A DNA stretch of 20,482 nucleotides from a virus. The notes below the pieces were generated by a model that saw only the letters and a program-made list of their open reading frames with translations, did no database searches and was not told where the DNA came from. The stretch spans positions 1-20,482 of the IMG/VR virus record IMGVR_UViG_3300029787_000427; one strand, 5' to 3'. Positions 205 through 8,651 of this stretch are shown here, one piece after another (position 1 is the stretch's first letter; every line of letters starts with the position of its first letter). The translations under genes and the position numbers were made by a program.

Positions 205-954
205 TTAAGCTGTAGCTCTAGAGTTTGAAAAGTTTGGCATTTTAGCATCGCCTATTGTTTTCATTTGTTTATTTGGCTCTTCTTTAGCTTCTATTATTGC
301 ATCAACCATATTTTCTTGAAGTAATTCAATAGTTTTTGCCACCATTTCTTGAGGTACATCTTTGATTAAATTTTTATGAGATTTAATCACCGCAAAAGCT
401 TCCACTAGTTGAGTTAAGGTACTAACCTGATTTTTTTTAGTCTCTCGATTTCTAGTAGGCTTTGAAGAGCTTTTCTTATCCAGTTCTTTAACTGGTACTA
501 CTTTTCCTTTGCTATCCAATATTTGCCCCTCATCAGTAATTGAGGTATTTTTATTTTCAAACAAATAGAAAGTAGCGTCAATCACTCTTTTAATAGACAT
601 CATAAAAGCTTTATTATCATCAGAGCTTTTATACCCAATGAAATGGTAAAGAGCTGAGCGTAAAGTATATCTATCAAGAGCCAGTCTATTTTTTTTAGCC
701 TCAATAATCATATGACCTGAGAGCCTCACCAGTTCCACTTTTTGTGAAGCTGTTCTTTTCTCAAATCTTTTATGAGCATCTAAAAAACTATTCCCAACCG
801 CATAAACTTTTTCAAGAGTCTTTGGTGAATAATAACTTTTCATACACTCATCGGAAATCTTAGCAGTAATTTTTTTTGCTGTCTTGCTAGCAATCTTTAA
901 TGAATGGTTAGCAGTTGATTTCTTTGGGCTTTTTGTTTTAGTAGTGTTTTTCAT
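205..954 (-). CDS. hypothetical protein, basic N-terminus, leftward gene
   Basis: A 249-residue protein that I do not recognise. It is the only convincing leftward gene here. The first ~35 residues are almost entirely Lys, Thr, Ser and Ala, a disordered basic tail that could touch nucleic acid. Residues ~45-130 look helical and carry the most regular hydrophobic pattern. A second Lys/Ser/Arg-rich linker follows near 155-175, then a helical C-terminal part (~178-225). There is no signal peptide or membrane segment. The start is well supported: on the minus strand a near-perfect Shine-Dalgarno AGGAGGT (plus 963-969) sits 8 bases before the ATG. A strong terminator follows. It has its own transcription unit, diverging from the late genes across a region with palindromic operators. 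A DNA-binding or regulatory role is possible but is inference only. Confidence 0.85.
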   Translation of the reverse strand: MKNTTKTKSPKKSTANHSLKIASKTAKKITAKISDECMKSYYSPKTLEKVYAVGNSFLDAHKRFEKRTASQKVELVRLSGHMIIEAKKNRLALDRYTLRSALYHFIGYKSSDDNKAFMMSIKRVIDATFYLFENKNTSITDEGQILDSKGKVVPVKELDKKSSSKPTRNRETKKNQVSTLTQLVEAFAVIKSHKNLIKDVPQEMVAKTIELLQENMVDAIIEAKEEPNKQMKTIGDAKMPNFSNSRATA

Positions 955-1653: not shown

Positions 1654-1830
1654 ATGGCAAAATCAACAGTTAATAAAGCAGGCAATTATACTAAGCCCGG
1701 AATGAGAAAACAACAATTCCAAAGAATTAAATCTGGTTCTAAGGGTGGTAGACCCGGACAATGGTCCGCAAGGAAGGCACAGCTTTTGGCATCGGCTTAT
1801 AAGAAAGCCGGTGGAGGATATAAGTCCTAG
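1654..1830 (+). CDS. small basic QWSARKAQ-motif phage protein
   Basis: A 58-residue protein with 14 Lys/Arg and no Asp or Glu. Residues ~31-56 contain GGRPGQWSARKAQLL followed by YKKAGGGY. I recall this as a widespread motif in marine phages. I also recall it forming the N-terminal half of a ~120-130 residue family of unknown function in bacteria and large DNA viruses, which I believe is Pfam DUF5872. The matching C-terminal half appears to be the separate gene at 3800-4045. The ATG lies 13 bases after AAAAGGA, and the gene is first in the operon behind the strong promoter and structured leader. Function is unknown. Charge and size suggest nucleic-acid or capsid association, which is inference. 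Confidence 0.85.
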   Translation: MAKSTVNKAGNYTKPGMRKQQFQRIKSGSKGGRPGQWSARKAQLLASAYKKAGGGYKS

Positions 1831-1845
1831 CTCTAACCCTCTTAT

Positions 1846-2169
1846 TTGCCTAAAAAAGTACTATATAAAGTTTACATAACATATTATGAGACTAAAGAAT
1901 ATTATATCGGTGTTACATCCAAATCAGGTGTACACTTTGATAATTATTTTGGCTCTAATACTACAGATTTAAAAATATCTCATAAAGAAATACTATTTCA
2001 TACACATAATAAATCAGATGCCAAGTTAATGGAGCTGATATATCAATTACGTAGTTTTAATGATAAGAAGTGTTTGAACAAAATGCTTAATATACGTCTC
2101 AGAAGAGATTTTATAAAAAAAATACCGAGGTTTACAATAAAAATAAAAGATGGCATTTCTCGTAGCTAA
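1846..2169 (+). CDS. GIY-YIG-like small nuclease or degenerate relative
   Basis: A 107-residue protein starting at TTG; an in-frame stop just upstream (1834-1836) excludes a longer form and no in-frame ATG lies nearby. The N-terminus reads VYI (residues 9-11), then ten residues later YIG (20-22), followed by a YFGSN segment (~34-38). This is the layout of GIY-YIG endonuclease domains of the short phage type. A Glu in a helix (MELIYQLR, ~63-70) could be the metal-binding catalytic residue. The first motif is imperfect (VYI for GIY) and the usual catalytic Arg is not obvious, so activity is uncertain. No good Shine-Dalgarno precedes the TTG. It overlaps the next gene by 20 bases. A homing-type or DNA-processing nuclease is the best guess. 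Confidence 0.6.
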   Translation: MPKKVLYKVYITYYETKEYYIGVTSKSGVHFDNYFGSNTTDLKISHKEILFHTHNKSDAKLMELIYQLRSFNDKKCLNKMLNIRLRRDFIKKIPRFTIKIKDGISRS

Positions 2170-2788
2170 CGTACCCCCAGTTAAAGTCTGGGTTAAAAAG
2201 CAATATTTATATGACCTTCAAAAGGGTCATGGAGAATATGTTCAAGGTATCTGGGCAACAGTGAAATCTATACAAGGCAGAGCCTTATACTTTGAAACCT
2301 ACATACCTGATTATGCTGCTCTCTATGATAAGTTACCGATTAGTGCATTTGTCAGTTCACCTGATGTAAAAGAAGATTTACCTTTAGAAGAATTAGAACT
2401 ATGGGATGCTTTTAGTTATCATATCACGGTGATAGAAAAAACAACTGTACCACCGAGAGCCAAGTATTTATCTCCTTCTAAACAATGGTATAAGGGTGAA
2501 TACTTGTTTACCATTGATAGCTGTCATGCTGACCATAACTTGCCTAATATAAATTATTCACAAGTTCCAGAAGAACATAAATCATTTAATATTCTAGAAT
2601 TAGAGAATGGACACTTTGCCGCTCAACCTAACAATAGAACATTATTTTATGATAAATCATTAACCCCGGCTGAACCCAAGCAACCTGATTTTAAAGTATC
2701 GACTGTTGAATATAATGTGGAGTCGGTAAGTAAATGGACTGCAGGAGATGATACGAATTACTTCTATAATTTTAAAGAACAAAAGTAA
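2150..2788 (+). CDS. conserved marine-phage hypothetical protein
   Basis: A 212-residue protein beginning MAFLVANVPPVKVWVKKQYL. It is soluble-looking, rich in aromatic residues (Tyr, Trp, Phe) and has a mixed alpha/beta pattern without membrane segments. Segments such as KGEYLFTIDSCHAD (~115-128), VPEEHKSFN and GHFAAQPNNR are, from memory, highly conserved in uncultured marine phages, where this gene often sits near the small basic protein genes and terminase. The CHAD segment (Cys-His-Asp) could be a metal or active site, but no known enzyme family fits. The start lies inside the preceding gene, and the stop overlaps the next ATG by one base (TAATG). Function unknown. Confidence 0.85.
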   Translation: MAFLVANVPPVKVWVKKQYLYDLQKGHGEYVQGIWATVKSIQGRALYFETYIPDYAALYDKLPISAFVSSPDVKEDLPLEELELWDAFSYHITVIEKTTVPPRAKYLSPSKQWYKGEYLFTIDSCHADHNLPNINYSQVPEEHKSFNILELENGHFAAQPNNRTLFYDKSLTPAEPKQPDFKVSTVEYNVESVSKWTAGDDTNYFYNFKEQK

Positions 2789-3102
2789 TGAATTTTATAA
2801 GTACTAAAAAACCTAGATGGTTAATGAGAGCATTAAACCCTAGGTCTCCTATGACAGAAAATAATGAAACTGTAAAATTAATAAGTTATGATAACAGAGT
2901 AGCCCCTACAATAATTAGAATTGGAACAAGAGGTAAAGGAAAATTTGTAAAATTAACAAATGAAGAAGCTATAAAAAGAGCAAATAAAAATAATACTTTT
3001 TTAGAATTTGCTACTAGTAAACAAGCAGAAAAGTTTGCTAAAAATTTTTCAACTATTATTCCTAATACTTTTAAAAATAAACCTAGAAGAACTAGTAAGT
3101 AA
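2788..3102 (+). CDS. conserved small basic phage hypothetical protein
   Basis: A 104-residue protein with a very basic C-terminus (KNKPRRTSK). The N-terminal part carries RALNPRSPM and TVKLISYDNRVAPTIIRIG, strings I associate with small conserved proteins of marine podoviruses. It has two probable beta strands, then a helix rich in Lys and Asn. No catalytic motif or membrane segment is present. Its ATG overlaps the previous stop as TAATG and its own stop overlaps the next ATG the same way, so translation is probably coupled. Function unknown. Confidence 0.8.
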   Translation: MNFISTKKPRWLMRALNPRSPMTENNETVKLISYDNRVAPTIIRIGTRGKGKFVKLTNEEAIKRANKNNTFLEFATSKQAEKFAKNFSTIIPNTFKNKPRRTSK

Positions 3103-3242
3103 TGCCACAAAAACAAACAGTAGTTAACAATATAAATTTTATTCCTAAAAGAACAAGTATAGGAAACGGCAAAGTAAAAATGTCATCAATGAATAAAAAT
3201 AAACGTAGAAGTTATAAAAAATACAGAGGACAAGGTAAATAA
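3102..3242 (+). CDS. 46-residue polycationic protein ending RGQGK
   Basis: Open frame of 46 codons plus TAA. The product has 13 Lys/Arg and no acidic residue. Visible motifs are PKRTSIG (15-21) and NKRRSYKKYRGQGK at the C-terminus. Short proteins with KRTSIG and KYRGQGK are, from memory, recurrent in marine phage genomes. The start is fixed by TAATG coupling to the upstream gene. The last 18 bases of the gene recur at 3412-3429, ahead of the gene at 3429. Composition suggests binding to nucleic acid or the capsid interior, but nothing proves it. Confidence 0.75.
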   Translation: MPQKQTVVNNINFIPKRTSIGNGKVKMSSMNKNKRRSYKKYRGQGK

Positions 3243-3251
3243 AATGGTAGC
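3225..3251 (+). repeat. direct repeat at gene junction, copy 1
   Basis: The end of the 46-residue gene and the start of the next: AGAGGACAAGGTAAATAA (3225-3242), one base, then ATGGTAGC (3244-3251). The same two blocks recur at 3412-3429 and 3429-3436, there overlapping by one base. Together they encode RGQGK-stop followed by MVA. This marks a duplication of about 187 bases covering one small gene. Confidence 0.8.
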
Positions 3252-3366
3252 TAAACTAATTAAAGTATCAAAAGCATTAAACAAAGCATCAAGATTACAT
3301 AAAAAACAATCTAAAATAATTAAAAATCATGCTAAGAAAATGACTGGTAACAAAAAAAAAAGTTAA
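3244..3366 (+). CDS. 40-residue polycationic protein, possibly truncated
   Basis: Open frame of 40 codons starting MVAKLIKVSKALNKASRLHK, with 14 Lys/Arg and no acidic residue. It begins one base after the previous stop. The frame ends at a TAA (3364-3366) just after a run of ten A. If that stop is ignored, the same frame stays open for 20 more codons and ends in RGQGK TAA (3427-3429), the same ending as the upstream gene. That suggests either a nonsense or indel event in the A run or a decayed duplicate. It shares the start MVAK with the gene at 3429. Confidence 0.6.
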   Translation: MVAKLIKVSKALNKASRLHKKQSKIIKNHAKKMTGNKKKS

Positions 3367-3436
3367 AAAATCAACAAGAAGATTATAGACATAATCAATG
3401 GTAAAAAAAAGAGAGGACAAGGTAAATAATGGTAGC
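3367..3436 (+). repeat. repeat copy 2 and coding remnant
   Basis: The second copy of the junction repeat (3412-3436) lies behind a 45-base stretch (3367-3411) that belongs to no intact gene. In the frame of the 3244 gene it reads on without a stop to RGQGK TAA, so it looks like the detached 3' end of that gene. The repeat supplies the stop/start of the gene at 3429 (TAATGG). Confidence 0.6.
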
Positions 3437-3800
3437 AAAAATAGTACTTAGTAAGAAATTAAAAGAAAAAAGAGAAAAGGCTAAAAGACAATTAGATAGT
3501 ATAGCCCATGCTAAGAAACTTAAAAAGTTTAATAACTACTGGTCTAAATTAAAACTAAGTACTATAACAAATTTAAAAAGAGCAGGTATAGATAAAAACG
3601 AAGCTAAAGATAGATATGTTCTTGGTAATGGTTTAGGGCTAAGAGTTAATATGTGGCAGATGGAGGATAAACCTGTAGTTCCCAAAGGTTCTTTTGAAGC
3701 AGGGGAAAAAGCAAAGAAAAATGTCATTAAAAAAAATAAAGAAACTAAAGAAGCTATTTTAAAAACTATAGATAACGTAAAAAAAATATTTAAAAATTAA
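3429..3800 (+). CDS. lysine-rich hypothetical protein
   Basis: A 123-residue, very basic protein beginning MVAKIVLSKKLKEKREKAKR. Residues 1-50 look like a charged helix or coiled coil. A more globular centre (~45-90) contains DRYVLGNGLGLRVNMWQ, and the C-terminal ~35 residues are again a Lys-rich helix. There is no membrane segment. The first codons match those of the gene at 3244, consistent with the repeat at the junction, but the remainder is different. It is coupled by TAATG to both neighbours. I do not recognise a family. Confidence 0.8.
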   Translation: MVAKIVLSKKLKEKREKAKRQLDSIAHAKKLKKFNNYWSKLKLSTITNLKRAGIDKNEAKDRYVLGNGLGLRVNMWQMEDKPVVPKGSFEAGEKAKKNVIKKNKETKEAILKTIDNVKKIFKN

Positions 3801-4045
3801 TGCTAGCTAAATCACAAAAAAGTTTAAAGTCTTGGACCAAACAAAAATGGAGAACCAAATCAGGTAAACCATCAAACAAGACAGGTGAAAGATATTTACC
3901 CAGTGCTGCAATAAAAAGTTTATCCCCTGCAGAATACGCAGCTACAACAAAAGCAAAGCGTCAAGGAACAAAAGCAGGTAAACAGTTTGTGAAACAACCA
4001 AAGAACATCGCAAAAAAAACGAGAGCCTATAGGAGGGTGACATGA
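3800..4045 (+). CDS. small basic protein resembling C-terminal half of a DUF5872-like family
   Basis: An 81-residue, strongly basic protein with only two Glu. The order KSLKSWTKQKWRTKSGK (~8-24), ERYLPSAAIKSLSP (~30-43), AATTKAKRQGTKAGKQF (~48-64) and NIAKK is distinctive. I recall it as the C-terminal half of a family of ~120-130 residues, probably DUF5872, whose N-terminal half carries the QWSARKAQ motif found here in the gene at 1654. In this genome the two halves are separate genes ~2 kb apart in one operon. The ATG overlaps the preceding stop (TAATG), and the stop overlaps the next ATG (ATGA). Biochemical function unknown. Confidence 0.82.
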   Translation: MLAKSQKSLKSWTKQKWRTKSGKPSNKTGERYLPSAAIKSLSPAEYAATTKAKRQGTKAGKQFVKQPKNIAKKTRAYRRVT

Positions 4046-4161
4046 CAAAAATAAAAGACATGATTATGGAAAAATGGAATGGCTTAAACAAAAAAGGTAA
4101 AATGTTTGTAGCCTTCATAGCATTAGTAATACTATTAGCTATTATTCAAGGAGTAGCATAA
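4042..4161 (+). CDS. 39-residue single-pass membrane protein, possible small holin
   Basis: Open frame of 39 codons. Residues 1-20 are charged and amphipathic (MTKIKDMIMEKWNGLNKKGK). Residues ~21-36 (MFVAFIALVILLAIIQ) form one hydrophobic helix that ends almost at the C-terminus. A very strong ribosome-binding site AGGAGGG (4031-4037) precedes the ATG, unusual within this cassette and a sign of high expression. The gene overlaps both neighbours (ATGA upstream, TAATG downstream). Small one-helix phage membrane proteins include pinholins, spanin-like and superinfection proteins. With no endolysin in view, holin is only a suggestion. Confidence 0.75.
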   Translation: MTKIKDMIMEKWNGLNKKGKMFVAFIALVILLAIIQGVA

Positions 4162-4427
4162 TGATATCAACAGTAGTAAAATTTATAGCAGCATTTGGTG
4201 TTAATAAAGCTATTAAAAAATTTGGTAAAGTTTTAGTAGATAAAGCTAGAACATTTATGAAAAAAAACCCTAACACGGTTGCAAAAATGAAATCTAATGT
4301 AGAACAAACACCAGTAGAAAAATTACCAATGTTTAAAAAGTTAAGTAATAGATATGTTAGTGAAGGCGTTGATTTTAGTGGATTGAATAAAGGGACTGAT
4401 ATCACTAAAGGTATGATGAAAAAATAA
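4161..4427 (+). CDS. small basic protein with FIA..GV.KA.KK N-terminal module
   Basis: An 88-residue basic protein. Residues 5-35 are a hydrophobic/amphipathic stretch followed by a Lys-rich helix, and they align without gaps to residues 12-42 of the protein at 4844 (14 identities in 31). The C-terminal half is polar and ends KGMMKK. The first ~14 residues could insert in or lie on a membrane, but they are short for a true transmembrane helix. It immediately follows the one-helix membrane protein with TAATG coupling. No known family recognised. Confidence 0.75.
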   Translation: MISTVVKFIAAFGVNKAIKKFGKVLVDKARTFMKKNPNTVAKMKSNVEQTPVEKLPMFKKLSNRYVSEGVDFSGLNKGTDITKGMMKK

Positions 4428-4591
4428 TGACAAAATCTTTATCATCTAAGCAAAAAAAAATAGCAAATCAAAGCCCTCCTTATGATAAAATTACAGGAGA
4501 AGATTTTCAAACTTTAAAAATGAAAAAAGGTAACGACATATCAAAAAATATGTTTGCTAAAAATAATGGCAATAGCAAAAAGAGTACGTAA
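4427..4591 (+). CDS. 54-residue conserved phage hypothetical (LS.KQKKIA motif)
   Basis: Open frame of 54 codons beginning MTKSLSSKQKKIAN. The pattern LSxKQKKIA, then a Pro-containing turn, then DKITGEDFQTLKMKKG is one I recall from very small conserved proteins in marine phages next to HNH-type genes. The start is fixed by TAATG coupling to the upstream gene. The 3' end overlaps the next gene by 26 bases in another frame. Function unknown. The gene is easily missed because of its size. Confidence 0.7.
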   Translation: MTKSLSSKQKKIANQSPPYDKITGEDFQTLKMKKGNDISKNMFAKNNGNSKKST

Positions 4592-4844
4592 TAAAAGTAC
4601 AGGTAGAAATTATAAGAAGGAATATGCTTCTTATCAAGGTAAACCTTCTGCCATTGCTAAAAGAGTTTCTAGAGACACTGCCCGTAGAGCAATGCAAAAA
4701 CGGGGAATAGTTAAAAAGGGAAGTGGTATGGATGTTGACCACAAGGATGGTAATCCTATGAACAACAATAAAAAAAACTTACGAGTAGTAAGTAAATTTA
4801 AAAATCGTTCCTTCGCTAGGAACAAAAACGGAGGAAAAAAATAA
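4566..4844 (+). CDS. HNH-like endonuclease, small phage type
   Basis: A 92-residue basic protein from the ATG at 4566; a TTG at 4554 in frame would add four residues but MAIAKRVRNK is the natural start. The core is VDHKDGNPMNNNKKNLRVVS (~57-76): a D-H pair (58-59), then DGN, then N71-L72-R73, which is the betabeta-alpha-metal layout of HNH nucleases. The third ligand would fall around Asn80 (KNRSFARN), as in N-ending variants. It overlaps the gene at 4427 by 26 bases and is coupled by TAATG to the next. HNH proteins near terminase genes in other phages help cut concatemers during packaging. This one lies ~1.2 kb upstream of the terminase genes, so that role is plausible but unproven. Confidence 0.8.
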   Translation: MAIAKRVRNKSTGRNYKKEYASYQGKPSAIAKRVSRDTARRAMQKRGIVKKGSGMDVDHKDGNPMNNNKKNLRVVSKFKNRSFARNKNGGKK

Positions 4845-5647
4845 TGCCAGTATTAGCAGTAGCAGCCATACCTACAGTCGCTAGTTTTATTGCTCGAATG
4901 GGAGTAACAAAAGCAGCTAAAAAGTATGCACCTAAATTAATTAAAGAAGCACAAAAATATATAAAAAAACATAACCTAACAAAAAAATTTCCTACACTAG
5001 GAAAGAAAACAGCCGAGTCAATGAAAAAGACTACGAAGAAAATGCAGGTTGTTAAAAAGAAAGTAAATCCAAAAATTCCTAAAAAAAAGAAAAAAGATTC
5101 TTTTGATGAAGAGTTAAAGAAAAAAGAAGGTACAAAAAACTTTAATAAGAAAAATAAAGATGCTACTACAACTAATAAAGCACCTAAAGCCTATGTAGAT
5201 AAATTTGGTAATCCTCATAGAACAGCAGCAGGAGCAGATAGAGCAAATAAACTTAATAAAAATCCTAGAATTAAAACAAAAAATAAAAAACTTAAAAAAG
5301 AAGAAAAACCAATAAATCAAAATATACAGACTAAAGCTCAATTAGAAAAAAGCTTAAAAAATAAAAAAATAATTACTGGTGGTGCTATACTTGCAGGAAG
5401 TATAGGTTTACCTTTTTTAAAAGGTAAAGGAGATAAAGTTATTAAGGGTTATAACTCAGCTAAGGACTCTATTACTGGTGGACCTTCTACTTTTGCTGCT
5501 GCATTTAAAAAAGCAAGAAAAGAAAAAGGACCTAACTCTACATTTACTTACAAAGGTAAACAATATAGTACTGTTACAGTAGACCAGTATCAAAAAGCAG
5601 GTTTTAATAGTCTTCGTGAATACCTAAACGCTCAAAAAAAGAAGTAA
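4844..5647 (+). CDS. large lysine-rich protein with hydrophobic N-terminus
   Basis: A 267-residue protein extraordinarily rich in Lys. Residues 1-20 are hydrophobic, 12-42 match the module of the protein at 4161, and ~43-175 are a long Lys/Asn/Thr-rich, presumably disordered region. A hydrophobic, Gly-rich segment, IITGGAILAGSIGLPFL, lies near 178-194. The C-terminal ~55 residues (TFAAAFKKARKEKG...FTYKGKQYST) form a small motif that I recall at the ends of structural or virion-internal proteins of marine phages. Two hydrophobic segments plus a polycationic middle would suit a virion protein that crosses or contacts a membrane while binding DNA, but this is inference. TAATG coupling occurs at both ends. 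Confidence 0.75.
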   Translation: MPVLAVAAIPTVASFIARMGVTKAAKKYAPKLIKEAQKYIKKHNLTKKFPTLGKKTAESMKKTTKKMQVVKKKVNPKIPKKKKKDSFDEELKKKEGTKNFNKKNKDATTTNKAPKAYVDKFGNPHRTAAGADRANKLNKNPRIKTKNKKLKKEEKPINQNIQTKAQLEKSLKNKKIITGGAILAGSIGLPFLKGKGDKVIKGYNSAKDSITGGPSTFAAAFKKARKEKGPNSTFTYKGKQYSTVTVDQYQKAGFNSLREYLNAQKKK

Positions 5648-5976
5648 TGGCTTTATCAGACGCAGAAAAAAAGAAAAACTTTTTAAAAAAACATGGATTA
5701 CCTAGGTTTAATTCTTGTGTATTGCGTTCTGAAGGTGGTAAAAAAGGAAAAGTAGGTATTTTAGTAAACGGAAAACCTAAATTAATACGTTTTGGTGATG
5801 CTTCTATGGGACATAACTACTCTCCTGAAGCTAGAAAGTCTTTTAAAGCTCGTCATGCAAAGAATATTGCTAAAGGTCCTACTAGTGCAGCTTACTGGGC
5901 TAACAAATGTCTGTGGGCAGGACCTAGTGGTAGTAAAAAATCACCTCCTAAAGGTCAAAAACACAGAAAAGGATAA
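5647..5976 (+). CDS. conserved phage hypothetical with RFGD...ARH...YWA motifs
   Basis: A 109-residue basic protein, the last of the cassette. Motifs in order: VNGKPKLIRFGDASM (~40-54), SPEARKSFKARH (~59-70), then SAAYWANKCLW (~79-89), ending in a Lys/Pro/Gly-rich tail. RFGD..M followed by R.SF.ARH and a YW motif recurs, as I recall, in small structural-type proteins of T4-like and other marine phages and in some large viruses, with no known activity. Two Cys residues (~24 and ~88) might form a metal or disulfide site. The start is coupled by TAATG. Only 58 bases separate it from the terminase small subunit start, and a new promoter lies in that gap. Confidence 0.8.
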   Translation: MALSDAEKKKNFLKKHGLPRFNSCVLRSEGGKKGKVGILVNGKPKLIRFGDASMGHNYSPEARKSFKARHAKNIAKGPTSAAYWANKCLWAGPSGSKKSPPKGQKHRKG

Positions 5977-6668: not shown

Positions 6669-8311
6669 AACCTCCAAAACCTAAAGCAAAAGGTAGAAAA
6701 AGAAAAGTTGCTATTCCTAAAATATCAAGCTCAGTAGCCAAAGCAAAAAAATCTGCTACAGAGTCTTTAACTAACTCTTACAAAAATTTAGAGAAAGCTA
6801 GAGAAAAGTATAAAGCAGAACAAGAAAAGTATAAAAATAAAAAAGAAAAGTTAAAAGATTTAGACAATGCTTTAGAAGGAAAAGTTTCTACAGTTTTAGA
6901 AACAACTCAAATTGAAGAGACTACTCCTAGTATACAAAAAGTTTTAAAAGAACGAGAGGTTATATTTGAACCTAATGAAGGACCTCAAACAGAATTTTTA
7001 GCAGCACCTGAACGAGAAGTATTTTATGGTGGTGCAAGAGGGGGTGGCAAATCTTATGCGTTATTAATTGACCCATTAAGATATTGTCACAAATCTGCTC
7101 ATCGTGGTTTATTTATTAGACGTACGATGCCTGAACTAAGAGATATTATTAATCATTCTCTTAATCTTTATCCTAAAGCTTATCCCGGTGCTAAATGGAG
7201 AGAGCAAGAAAAAGAATGGAGATTTCCTTCAGGTGCTAGAATAGAGTTTGGATATGCTGAGAACTTAACTGATGTACTTCGTTACCAAGGACAATCTTAT
7301 ACTTGGATTGGAATAGATGAATTACCTCAATATCCAACCGAAGATATTTATAATTTTCTTCGGTCTTCTTTAAGAAGTGTAGACCCTAATATACCAGTAT
7401 ATATTAGAGCAACAGGTAACCCCGGAAACGTAGGTTCCCATTGGGTAAAAAAAATGTTTGTTGAACCCGGAGAACCTAATGAAGCATTTACTGTAGCTAT
7501 CCCTACAATGGCAGGAACTAAATCAATTACTAGAAGATTTATTCCTGCAAAATTACAAGATAATCCTTATCTAATGCAAACAGATGATTATCTTATTATG
7601 TTATCATCTTTACCTGATGTACAACGTAAACAATTTTTAGAAGGGGATTGGGATGCTTATGAGGATTCTAGTTTTCCAGAGTTTTCTAGAGAAGTCCATG
7701 TATTAGATAATTTTGAAATACCTAATAACTGGATGAGATTTAGAGCAGCAGACTGGGGATATAGTTCACCTGCTTGTTGTTTATGGTTTGCAGTTGACCA
7801 TGATAATGTAATGTATGTATATCGAGAATTATACACACAAAAAATTACAGCAGATGAATTTGCAAAACAAGTTATAGATTTAGAGTATGGAGAATATATT
7901 AGATACGGTGTATTAGATTCTTCTACTTGGGCTAACAGGGGAGATGTTGGACCTAGCATAGCAGAAACAATGATTAAAGAAGGATGTAGATGGAGACCAT
8001 CAGATAGAAGTCCTAGAAGTCGTGTAAATGGTAAGTTAGAAATACATAAAAGATTAAAACTAGATGAAGATACAAAAGAACCTACTTTATATATTCTTAA
8101 TAGTTGTAAAAATTTATTAAGAACATTACCTATGTTACCCCTTGATAAAAATAATAGTGAAGATGTAGACACTAAAGCAGAAGACCATGCTTATGATGCA
8201 CTAAGATATGGATGCATGAGTAGACCTGCTCACCCTCATAGTTTACAAACTCATTCTCCTTTATCAAGAGAACAAAAGTTTAAACCAGTGGATGAAGGAT
8301 TTGGATATTAA
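6596..8311 (+). CDS. terL: terminase large subunit
   Basis: The 571-residue ATP-driven packaging motor and nuclease. The ATPase half shows Walker A GGARGGGKS (145-153, Lys152), Walker B WIGIDE (237-242, Asp241-Glu242) and coupling motif ATGNPG (272-277). The C-terminal RuvC-like nuclease half shows AADWG (Asp386), LDSS (Asp441) and EDHAYDALRY (Asp530/Asp534). About 110 residues precede the ATPase domain; 47-95 are a Lys/Glu-rich coiled coil, so the protein is longer than the usual ~420-500. The start at 6596 has AAGGAAG 7 bases upstream, and no other in-frame Met occurs before residue 178, so the extension is real if this start is used. It acts at the portal, threading DNA into proheads. Confidence 0.97.
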   Translation: MVDEKDRQESNGHGITQDSNERLVEPPKPKAKGRKRKVAIPKISSSVAKAKKSATESLTNSYKNLEKAREKYKAEQEKYKNKKEKLKDLDNALEGKVSTVLETTQIEETTPSIQKVLKEREVIFEPNEGPQTEFLAAPEREVFYGGARGGGKSYALLIDPLRYCHKSAHRGLFIRRTMPELRDIINHSLNLYPKAYPGAKWREQEKEWRFPSGARIEFGYAENLTDVLRYQGQSYTWIGIDELPQYPTEDIYNFLRSSLRSVDPNIPVYIRATGNPGNVGSHWVKKMFVEPGEPNEAFTVAIPTMAGTKSITRRFIPAKLQDNPYLMQTDDYLIMLSSLPDVQRKQFLEGDWDAYEDSSFPEFSREVHVLDNFEIPNNWMRFRAADWGYSSPACCLWFAVDHDNVMYVYRELYTQKITADEFAKQVIDLEYGEYIRYGVLDSSTWANRGDVGPSIAETMIKEGCRWRPSDRSPRSRVNGKLEIHKRLKLDEDTKEPTLYILNSCKNLLRTLPMLPLDKNNSEDVDTKAEDHAYDALRYGCMSRPAHPHSLQTHSPLSREQKFKPVDEGFGY

Positions 8312-8651
8312 AAGTAAAATTAAAATAGGATATAGAAATTACTCTTTAGAAAAAAATGATAGAGTATGGAATAAGCAAACAGAATCCTATGGTCAGTTTC
8401 TTTCTAAAGAAGGTATAATATGTTTATCTTCTGAAGAGGATAGTATATCACAAGCTAATACATTAATACATGAGGTACTCCACGGTATCGTGTATCAATG
8501 GGGTTTAGAATCAGAGCTTGATGATAAAGAAGAACGAATTGTTAATACTCTATCAAATGGTATAACAACAGTTTTTCGAGATAACCCGTGGATGTTAAAC
8601 TTTATAAAAAATAAAGTTGAGGAGGAAAAAAAGAATGATGAAAAAAAGTGA
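8292..8651 (+). CDS. HExxH zinc-metallopeptidase-like protein
   Basis: A 119-residue protein with HEVLH at 60-64 within ANTLIHEVLHGIV, the zincin HExxH motif. A downstream helix with Glu (EERIVNTLSNGITTVFRDNP, ~80-99) may supply the third ligand. The layout matches the small phage proteins related to the ImmA/IrrE-type metallopeptidase fold. The N-terminal part (~8-50) is beta-rich. It overlaps the end of terL by 20 bases and precedes the portal cluster. No classical prohead protease is seen among the head genes, so a maturation role is possible, as is an action against host regulators. Both are inference. Confidence 0.75.
   Translation: MKDLDIKSKIKIGYRNYSLEKNDRVWNKQTESYGQFLSKEGIICLSSEEDSISQANTLIHEVLHGIVYQWGLESELDDKEERIVNTLSNGITTVFRDNPWMLNFIKNKVEEEKKNDEKK

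Follow-up and report, generated by a model that had tools for sequence, protein, structure and literature searches.

Small basic proteins encoded ahead of the terminase genes of an HMO-2011-type phage

Bacteriophage T4 carries internal proteins (IPI, IPII and IPIII), a diverse set having only a capsid targeting sequence in common; the head takes up about 1000 of these molecules along with the DNA, whose phosphates are contacted by their lysines, and at least one of them, IPI*, is injected to counter a restriction enzyme (PMC3012670). Phage DNA is usually considered to be neutralised by cations and polyamines, not by proteins (PMC3281028). Among large eukaryotic viruses, the basic virion proteins A278L and A282L of PBCV-1 and P64 of ascovirus were found with the viral genome or shown to bind it (PMC3281028, PMC6163548), and p6 of phi29 is a phage-encoded DNA-organising protein (PMC11894785). 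Here we describe an operon of small, mostly basic proteins at positions 1654-5976 of a 20,482-base IMG/VR virus record (IMGVR_UViG_3300029787_000427), the whole of which is called the window. It was classed with the HMO-2011-type phages, which are widespread in the ocean (PMC9038755). This assignment rests on the terminase large subunit (TerL), the replication genes lying outside the 20.5-kb fragment; TerL is homologous to those of the group, the best isolate matches being pelagiphage HTVC033P (70% identity), then roseophages of the HMO-2011 type, among them CRP-1, and HMO-2011 itself (about 51-53%).

The cassette is composed of three layers: core modules A, B and C, two proteins sharing an N-terminal tag (4161 and 4844, open reading frames or ORFs being named after their first position) and lineage-specific small ORFs. 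Since the core is conserved together in many marine viruses and one tag is shared by swappable tails, the set probably enters the head with the DNA. Our preferred reading, to which we give an even chance, is that of a late operon whose products associate with DNA and/or the procapsid core around packaging and end inside the head.

Organization of the cassette

Fourteen successive ORFs occurred on one strand, most of them overlapping by 1-26 nt (stop/start coupling). Net charges of +4 to +52 (+10 to +35 per 100 amino acids, aa) and isoelectric points (pI) of 9.9-11.7 were recorded for 13 of them, ORF 2150 being an acidic exception (pI 5.4). An earlier note on this DNA had announced about thirteen small genes with mostly very basic products, which holds for most of the 14 ORFs but not for all. 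That note had also reported products devoid of Asp and Glu at 1654 (58 aa), 3102 (46 aa) and 3244 (40 aa), which was confirmed; if Asp and Glu were as frequent as in the genes downstream (13.7%), the chance of having none would be 2e-4, 1e-3 and 3e-3, respectively. The large structural genes downstream code for neutral or acidic proteins (pI 4.1-6.9), exceptions being the small ORFs 14924 (pI 10.1) and 6414 (pI 8.8).

Equally correct were the consensus promoter announced ahead of the cassette, found once in the window against a mean of 0.08 in shuffled sequences, and the position directly before packaging genes, those of the terminase small subunit (TerS, 6035) and TerL (6596) being immediately downstream. 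The promoter was exactly kept upstream of A in seven relatives (L243, L244, L245, L247, L248, L089 and L171), with a variable spacer, and the first five of these also kept the gene order A-1846-2150-3102-B-4042-4161-4427-HNH-4844-C-TerS-6414-TerL. Most cassette ORFs are under purifying selection and behave as genes, the ratio of nonsynonymous to synonymous differences (pN/pS) to the best relative being about 0.05-0.34 for most of them and 0.6 for full-length 4844. As for the suggestion of a coordinated set, a polycation operon by the packaging genes was indeed kept in relatives, but not as a uniform unit: on comparison of synteny, A, B and C (and, less widely, the HNH ORF) were broadly conserved, whereas 2788, 3244 and 3429 were sporadic and 2150 belonged to another family. 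The idea put forward in the note is supported in part, what it called a set being a conserved core with added cargo.

Core modules and tagged proteins

Modules A and B were encountered in phages of the HMO-2011, HTVC103P, HTVC034P/035P and MEP401 types. Their loci are viral contigs fetched by similarity to A or B and include overlapping pieces and close relatives, and hence cannot be treated as independent samples; among them, separate A and B genes lay on one strand with A first in 129 of 129 cases (91 pairs at most 600 bp apart), and most loci without the partner gene end close by. Terminase genes were on the A/B strand in all 55 loci where they were visible, the first of them 0.2-4.7 kb downstream of A in 48. 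The content of the A-B interval varied among loci, with gaps of up to about 3 kb. In HMO-2011, B and A are separated by a gene with the annotation methanesulfonate monooxygenase (L002 7358-8440), and the gap therefore looks like a cargo site.

A and B are the two halves of one DUF5872-like protein, as seen from fusions and profile alignment. Searched singly against Pfam and NCBIfam, A, B and C gave no match. Concatenated A+B from the window matched DUF5872 (PF19197) with an expectation value (E) of 1.4e-4 and 22.8 bits, residues 20-120 aligning collinearly with profile positions 5-110 of 116. The Pfam gathering cut-off (27.5 bits) was reached neither by A+B nor by a bacterial fusion (L041, 25.5 bits), and A+B is therefore termed DUF5872-like, that is, related but not a member. 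Sequence profiles of PDB entries gave no match to A-B, and a DUF5872 protein of Chrysochromulina ericina virus was among the structure matches (E 0.05). DUF5872 was found in the literature in one paper only, as a mention in a gene list, and DUF6321, to which B may be fused, not at all.

Fusion ORFs included A-B (n=49), B-A (n=12), B-DUF6321 (n=7) and B-C (n=1). Order A-B in a single protein was found in Sphingomonas, Methylobacterium, Aureimonas, Roseomonas and others, and order B-A in SAR11 genomes; B-DUF6321 and B-C occurred in viruses. A 710-aa viral ORF (L098 680-2800) combined A, B, DUF6321, an HNH-like module and MKKGG-rich repeats.

Module C, on the A/B strand in 71 of 71 loci, is a detachable module of prohead proteases, with a significant profile match to phrog_7595. 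Protein gp125 of Vibrio phage ICP1 (L343 5870-6706), predicted to degrade scaffold (PMC9040626), displays an S78_2 protease domain at residues 37-160, then C at residues 184-261 (phrog_7595, E 6.5e-11). Gp102 of Aeromonas phage 2L372D has the reverse order, with C at residues 75-150 (E 8.6e-11) and the protease at 176-287. Both genes lie between portal and capsid genes, the expected place for a capsid protease. A PHROG matched by C bears the label minor head protein and DNA pilot. Pfam gave no match to an S78_2/XkdF protease domain in ORF 5647; the structure model of C had a predicted local distance difference test score of 82.5, and PDB sequence profiles gave one chance-level match (E 0.61). 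Of all the findings, the homology of C with a domain of prohead proteases connects the cassette best with the inside of the procapsid.

Aligned with each other, the N-termini of ORFs 4161 and 4844 gave a score of 79, against a shuffle mean of 21 and with none of 3000 shuffles reaching 79. This pairwise comparison is the strict test, because the tag profile was built iteratively from the ORFs it detects: 43 among 41,432, near the N-terminus, with none in reversed and none in shuffled controls, which shows that composition alone gives no such matches. The remaining parts of the tag-bearing ORFs formed eight tail families, among which BLAST detected no mutual similarity. Where neighbours were known, tagged ORFs occurred on the terminase/capsid strand, mostly between A/B and terminase, and two (L124 and L151) were near a capsid gene. 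ORF 4844 itself is a recombination mosaic, the genomes compared being elsewhere about 100% identical: in L242 (1375-2190), both ends were kept and much of the middle had about 30-55% DNA identity, with flanks about 100% identical.

Role of the cassette

Under the preferred reading, that of products ending inside the head, the strong promoter would provide late expression. A, B and C would bind DNA phosphate, perhaps acidic scaffold too, via their conserved positive charge, and so help neutralise or organise the DNA. The tag would direct the variable-tail proteins into the procapsid, like the T4 capsid targeting sequence, and the tails may leave the head alongside DNA and act in the cell infected next. 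Evidence for placement in the head is indirect and consists of the prohead protease domain C and of the tag shared by variable tails. Median net charges per 100 aa were +22, +24 and +21 for A, B and C in viruses, whereas in SAR11 A had +24 and B +25. Viral charge drops slightly with guanine plus cytosine (GC) content, from about +24 to +20 per 100 aa; AT-richness as the cause of basicity was rejected from the GC classes, since viral contigs of 45-55% GC still encode homologues of A and B with about +20.

Several points weigh against this reading. The A/B pair lies away from the terminase in HTVC033P and HTVC035P. Chromosomal A-B proteins of high-GC alphaproteobacteria are mildly basic, with +8 to +10 per 100 aa, and the fold is therefore not bound to act as a polycation. 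The tag was seen only in uncultured relatives and was absent from the isolate genomes searched, and a prohead protease gene was not identified in the window. Comparison of the A-B and C models with the PDB (Foldseek, VIA-align) gave no convincing solved structure, and a weak match to the Mu transposase DNA-binding subdomain (E 4.7; Z 2.8) was not relied on. Neither virion proteomics of HMO-2011-type phages nor DNA-binding data for cassette proteins were found in the literature, and one paper states that evidence for a large contribution of basic proteins to phage DNA neutralisation is lacking (PMC3281028).

A bolder form of the preferred reading is put forward tentatively, as possible. Abundant marine podoviruses would have a tag-directed internal-protein system independent of that of T4, in which the tag sends changing basic effectors into the procapsid, next to core proteins that bind DNA and are akin to a DUF5872-like cellular protein; the effectors would be ejected into the next host, and rapid tail swapping would reflect an arms race.

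The strongest rival, which we regard as rather unlikely, is that the proteins act in the infected cell and not in the virion, like p6 of phi29 or a phage nucleoid protein. They would cover replicating phage DNA, organise it or drive host nucleoid proteins off, their proximity to the terminase reflecting only late transcription. It owes its rank to relatives that sit in chromosomes, where there is no virion. The fused gene was found in 57 of the 59 Methylobacterium-group genomes sampled (nearly all full length), about 13 of 61 from the Sphingomonas group and about 13 of 118 from the SAR11 family. At their ends, some cellular fusions show a weak match to Rho_N, which binds nucleic acids, and some a PAAKR-rich, histone H1-like tail, both of which hint at association with nucleic acids. 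The SAR11 B-A gene (L024-L051, e.g. L051 4950-5414) adjoins FAD oxidase-DUF1365-CFA synthase-DUF3833 genes, often with TspO, a neighbourhood that we take to suggest photo-oxidative stress; the context of the Methylobacterium and Sphingomonas A-B copies, searched for conserved neighbours, was uninformative. A purely intracellular role fits poorly, however, with C as a prohead protease module and with the location of some tagged proteins among portal and capsid genes.

It is improbable that part of the set consists of procapsid-core or scaffold partners, or of protease-targeting modules, that make no DNA contact and whose charge docks them to the acidic scaffold or coat interior. Fusions of C with S78_2 proteases exist in both orders, and the probable scaffold (12576) and coat (13513) proteins are acidic; yet the chromosomal relatives of A and B have no capsid to serve. 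Least probable is a hotspot of small mobile cargo ORFs with no joint function and a basicity due to AT-rich composition, which would account for the variable A-B interval, the monooxygenase gene in that of HMO-2011 and the sporadic 2788, 3244 and 3429, but is contradicted by the strict linkage and fusions of A, B and C, by purifying selection and by the charge kept at higher GC.

Other features of the locus

Coordinates are collected in the table, together with matches of the individual ORFs. ORF 2788 was missing in 147 viral loci and present (93-97%) in L241 and L260.

The 5' untranslated region (5'UTR) contains a candidate new RNA element. Its stem, of 9-13 bp and nearly fixed position, was formed by differing sequences in the six cases compared (shuffle P 0.0005-0.02 each), the stem sequence differing between relatives L089, L247, L243, L179 and L101. 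In L290 the element occurred in another gene context, again behind a promoter-like sequence. An Rfam search matched no family.

Features of the cassette and its surroundings in the window
Feature	Start	End	Strand	Description
Promoter TTGACA-16-TATAAT	1505	1532	+	12/12 consensus, sole 12/12 match in window
Structured 5'UTR RNA element	1543	1615	+	Invariant core (ATCCAAAGGGTCACACA ... TCACGG) within 11-bp stem
Module A	1654	1830	+	58 aa, no Asp/Glu; N-terminal half of DUF5872-like protein; phrog_17747, E 1.1e-30
ORF 1846	1846	2169	+	107 aa, between A and B; weak phrog_314 match, E 0.0034; possibly homing-endonuclease-like; pN/pS 0.2
ORF 2150	2150	2788	+	212 aa, acidic; phrog_3704 (ferredoxin label there), E 1.3e-93; outside basic set
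ORF 2788	2788	3102	+	104 aa, basic, sporadic cargo
ORF 3102	3102	3242	+	46-aa polycation; phrog_17967 / phrog_516; 14 close relatives, pN/pS 0.07
ORF 3244	3244	3366	+	40-aa polycation, sporadic; 1 close relative, pN/pS 0.34
ORF 3429	3429	3800	+	123 aa, basic, sporadic; 4 relatives in viral collection, pN/pS 0.21
Module B	3800	4045	+	81 aa, +21; C-terminal half of DUF5872-like protein; phrog_14910, E 9.4e-40
ORF 4042	4042	4161	+	39 aa, one hydrophobic segment, basic N-terminus; phrog_14087, E 5e-4; 15 close relatives
Tagged protein 1 (4161)	4161	4427	+	88 aa; N-terminal tag (about residues 1-37) and tail
ORF 4427	4427	4591	+	54 aa, basic; 12 close relatives
ORF 4566	4566	4844	+	92 aa, +23, HNH endonuclease-like; PF13392 (HNH_3), 33 bits, above cut-off of 24.8
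Tagged protein 2 (4844)	4844	5647	+	267 aa, +52; tag (N-terminal) and motif (C-terminal) conserved, middle a hypervariable mosaic
Module C	5647	5976	+	109 aa, +21; phrog_7595, E 3.6e-16
TerS	6035	6439	+	Terminase small subunit; phrog_2538
TerL	6596	8311	+	Terminase large subunit; 70% identical to HTVC033P

Further upstream, a noncoding stretch contains two copies of the palindrome GTAACACGTGTTAC (1066-1081 and 1167-1182), about 100 bp apart; among the fetched loci, only L248 also has it. The pair is possibly an operator or a packaging/origin site. A divergent 249-aa basic protein (205-954, minus strand, pI 9.8), followed by a strong terminator (158-185), had almost no relatives. After TerL, a 119-aa protein (8292-8651; phrog_1233, weak peptidase match) displays an HEVLH motif, which is HExxH-like and would fit a metallopeptidase.

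Comparison with known systems

The earlier note knew of no described system matching the set as a whole. This was right: the literature yielded no description of the operon as a set, of the split DUF5872-like pair, of the link between C and prohead proteases or of the shared tag. Parts of it, however, match named families (DUF5872-like, PHROGs), and the layout of one tag with variable tails resembles T4 internal proteins. The individual domains are mostly already known as families without an assigned function. If the preferred reading is true, the cassette would be a testable example, beyond T4, of packaging assisted by proteins and of effectors that are injected. It would also provide functional leads for DUF5872-like proteins, which occur in giant viruses as well as in bacterial chromosomes, and for module C of the ICP1 capsid protease.

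Compared with DUF5872, a family found for example in alga-infecting giant viruses, A+B aligns over nearly the whole profile, but is here split into two genes and scores under the Pfam cut-off. Likewise, C is homologous to a domain of the XkdF/S78_2 prohead proteases ICP1 gp125 and 2L372D gp102, whereas it stands alone here, without the protease domain. The packaging proteins of large eukaryotic viruses share basicity with the cassette products; the former are proven in virions and the latter proposed for them. The p6 protein of phi29 acts on intracellular DNA, and the cassette products would resemble it as DNA-organising proteins encoded by a phage. With respect to T4, modules A, B and C are untagged, the head location of the cassette products is inferred, and neither a protease cleavage site nor a prohead protease was identified in the window. 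Yet the single N-terminal tag shared by 4161 and 4844, and carried by eight unrelated tail families, would parallel the T4 internal proteins in architecture.

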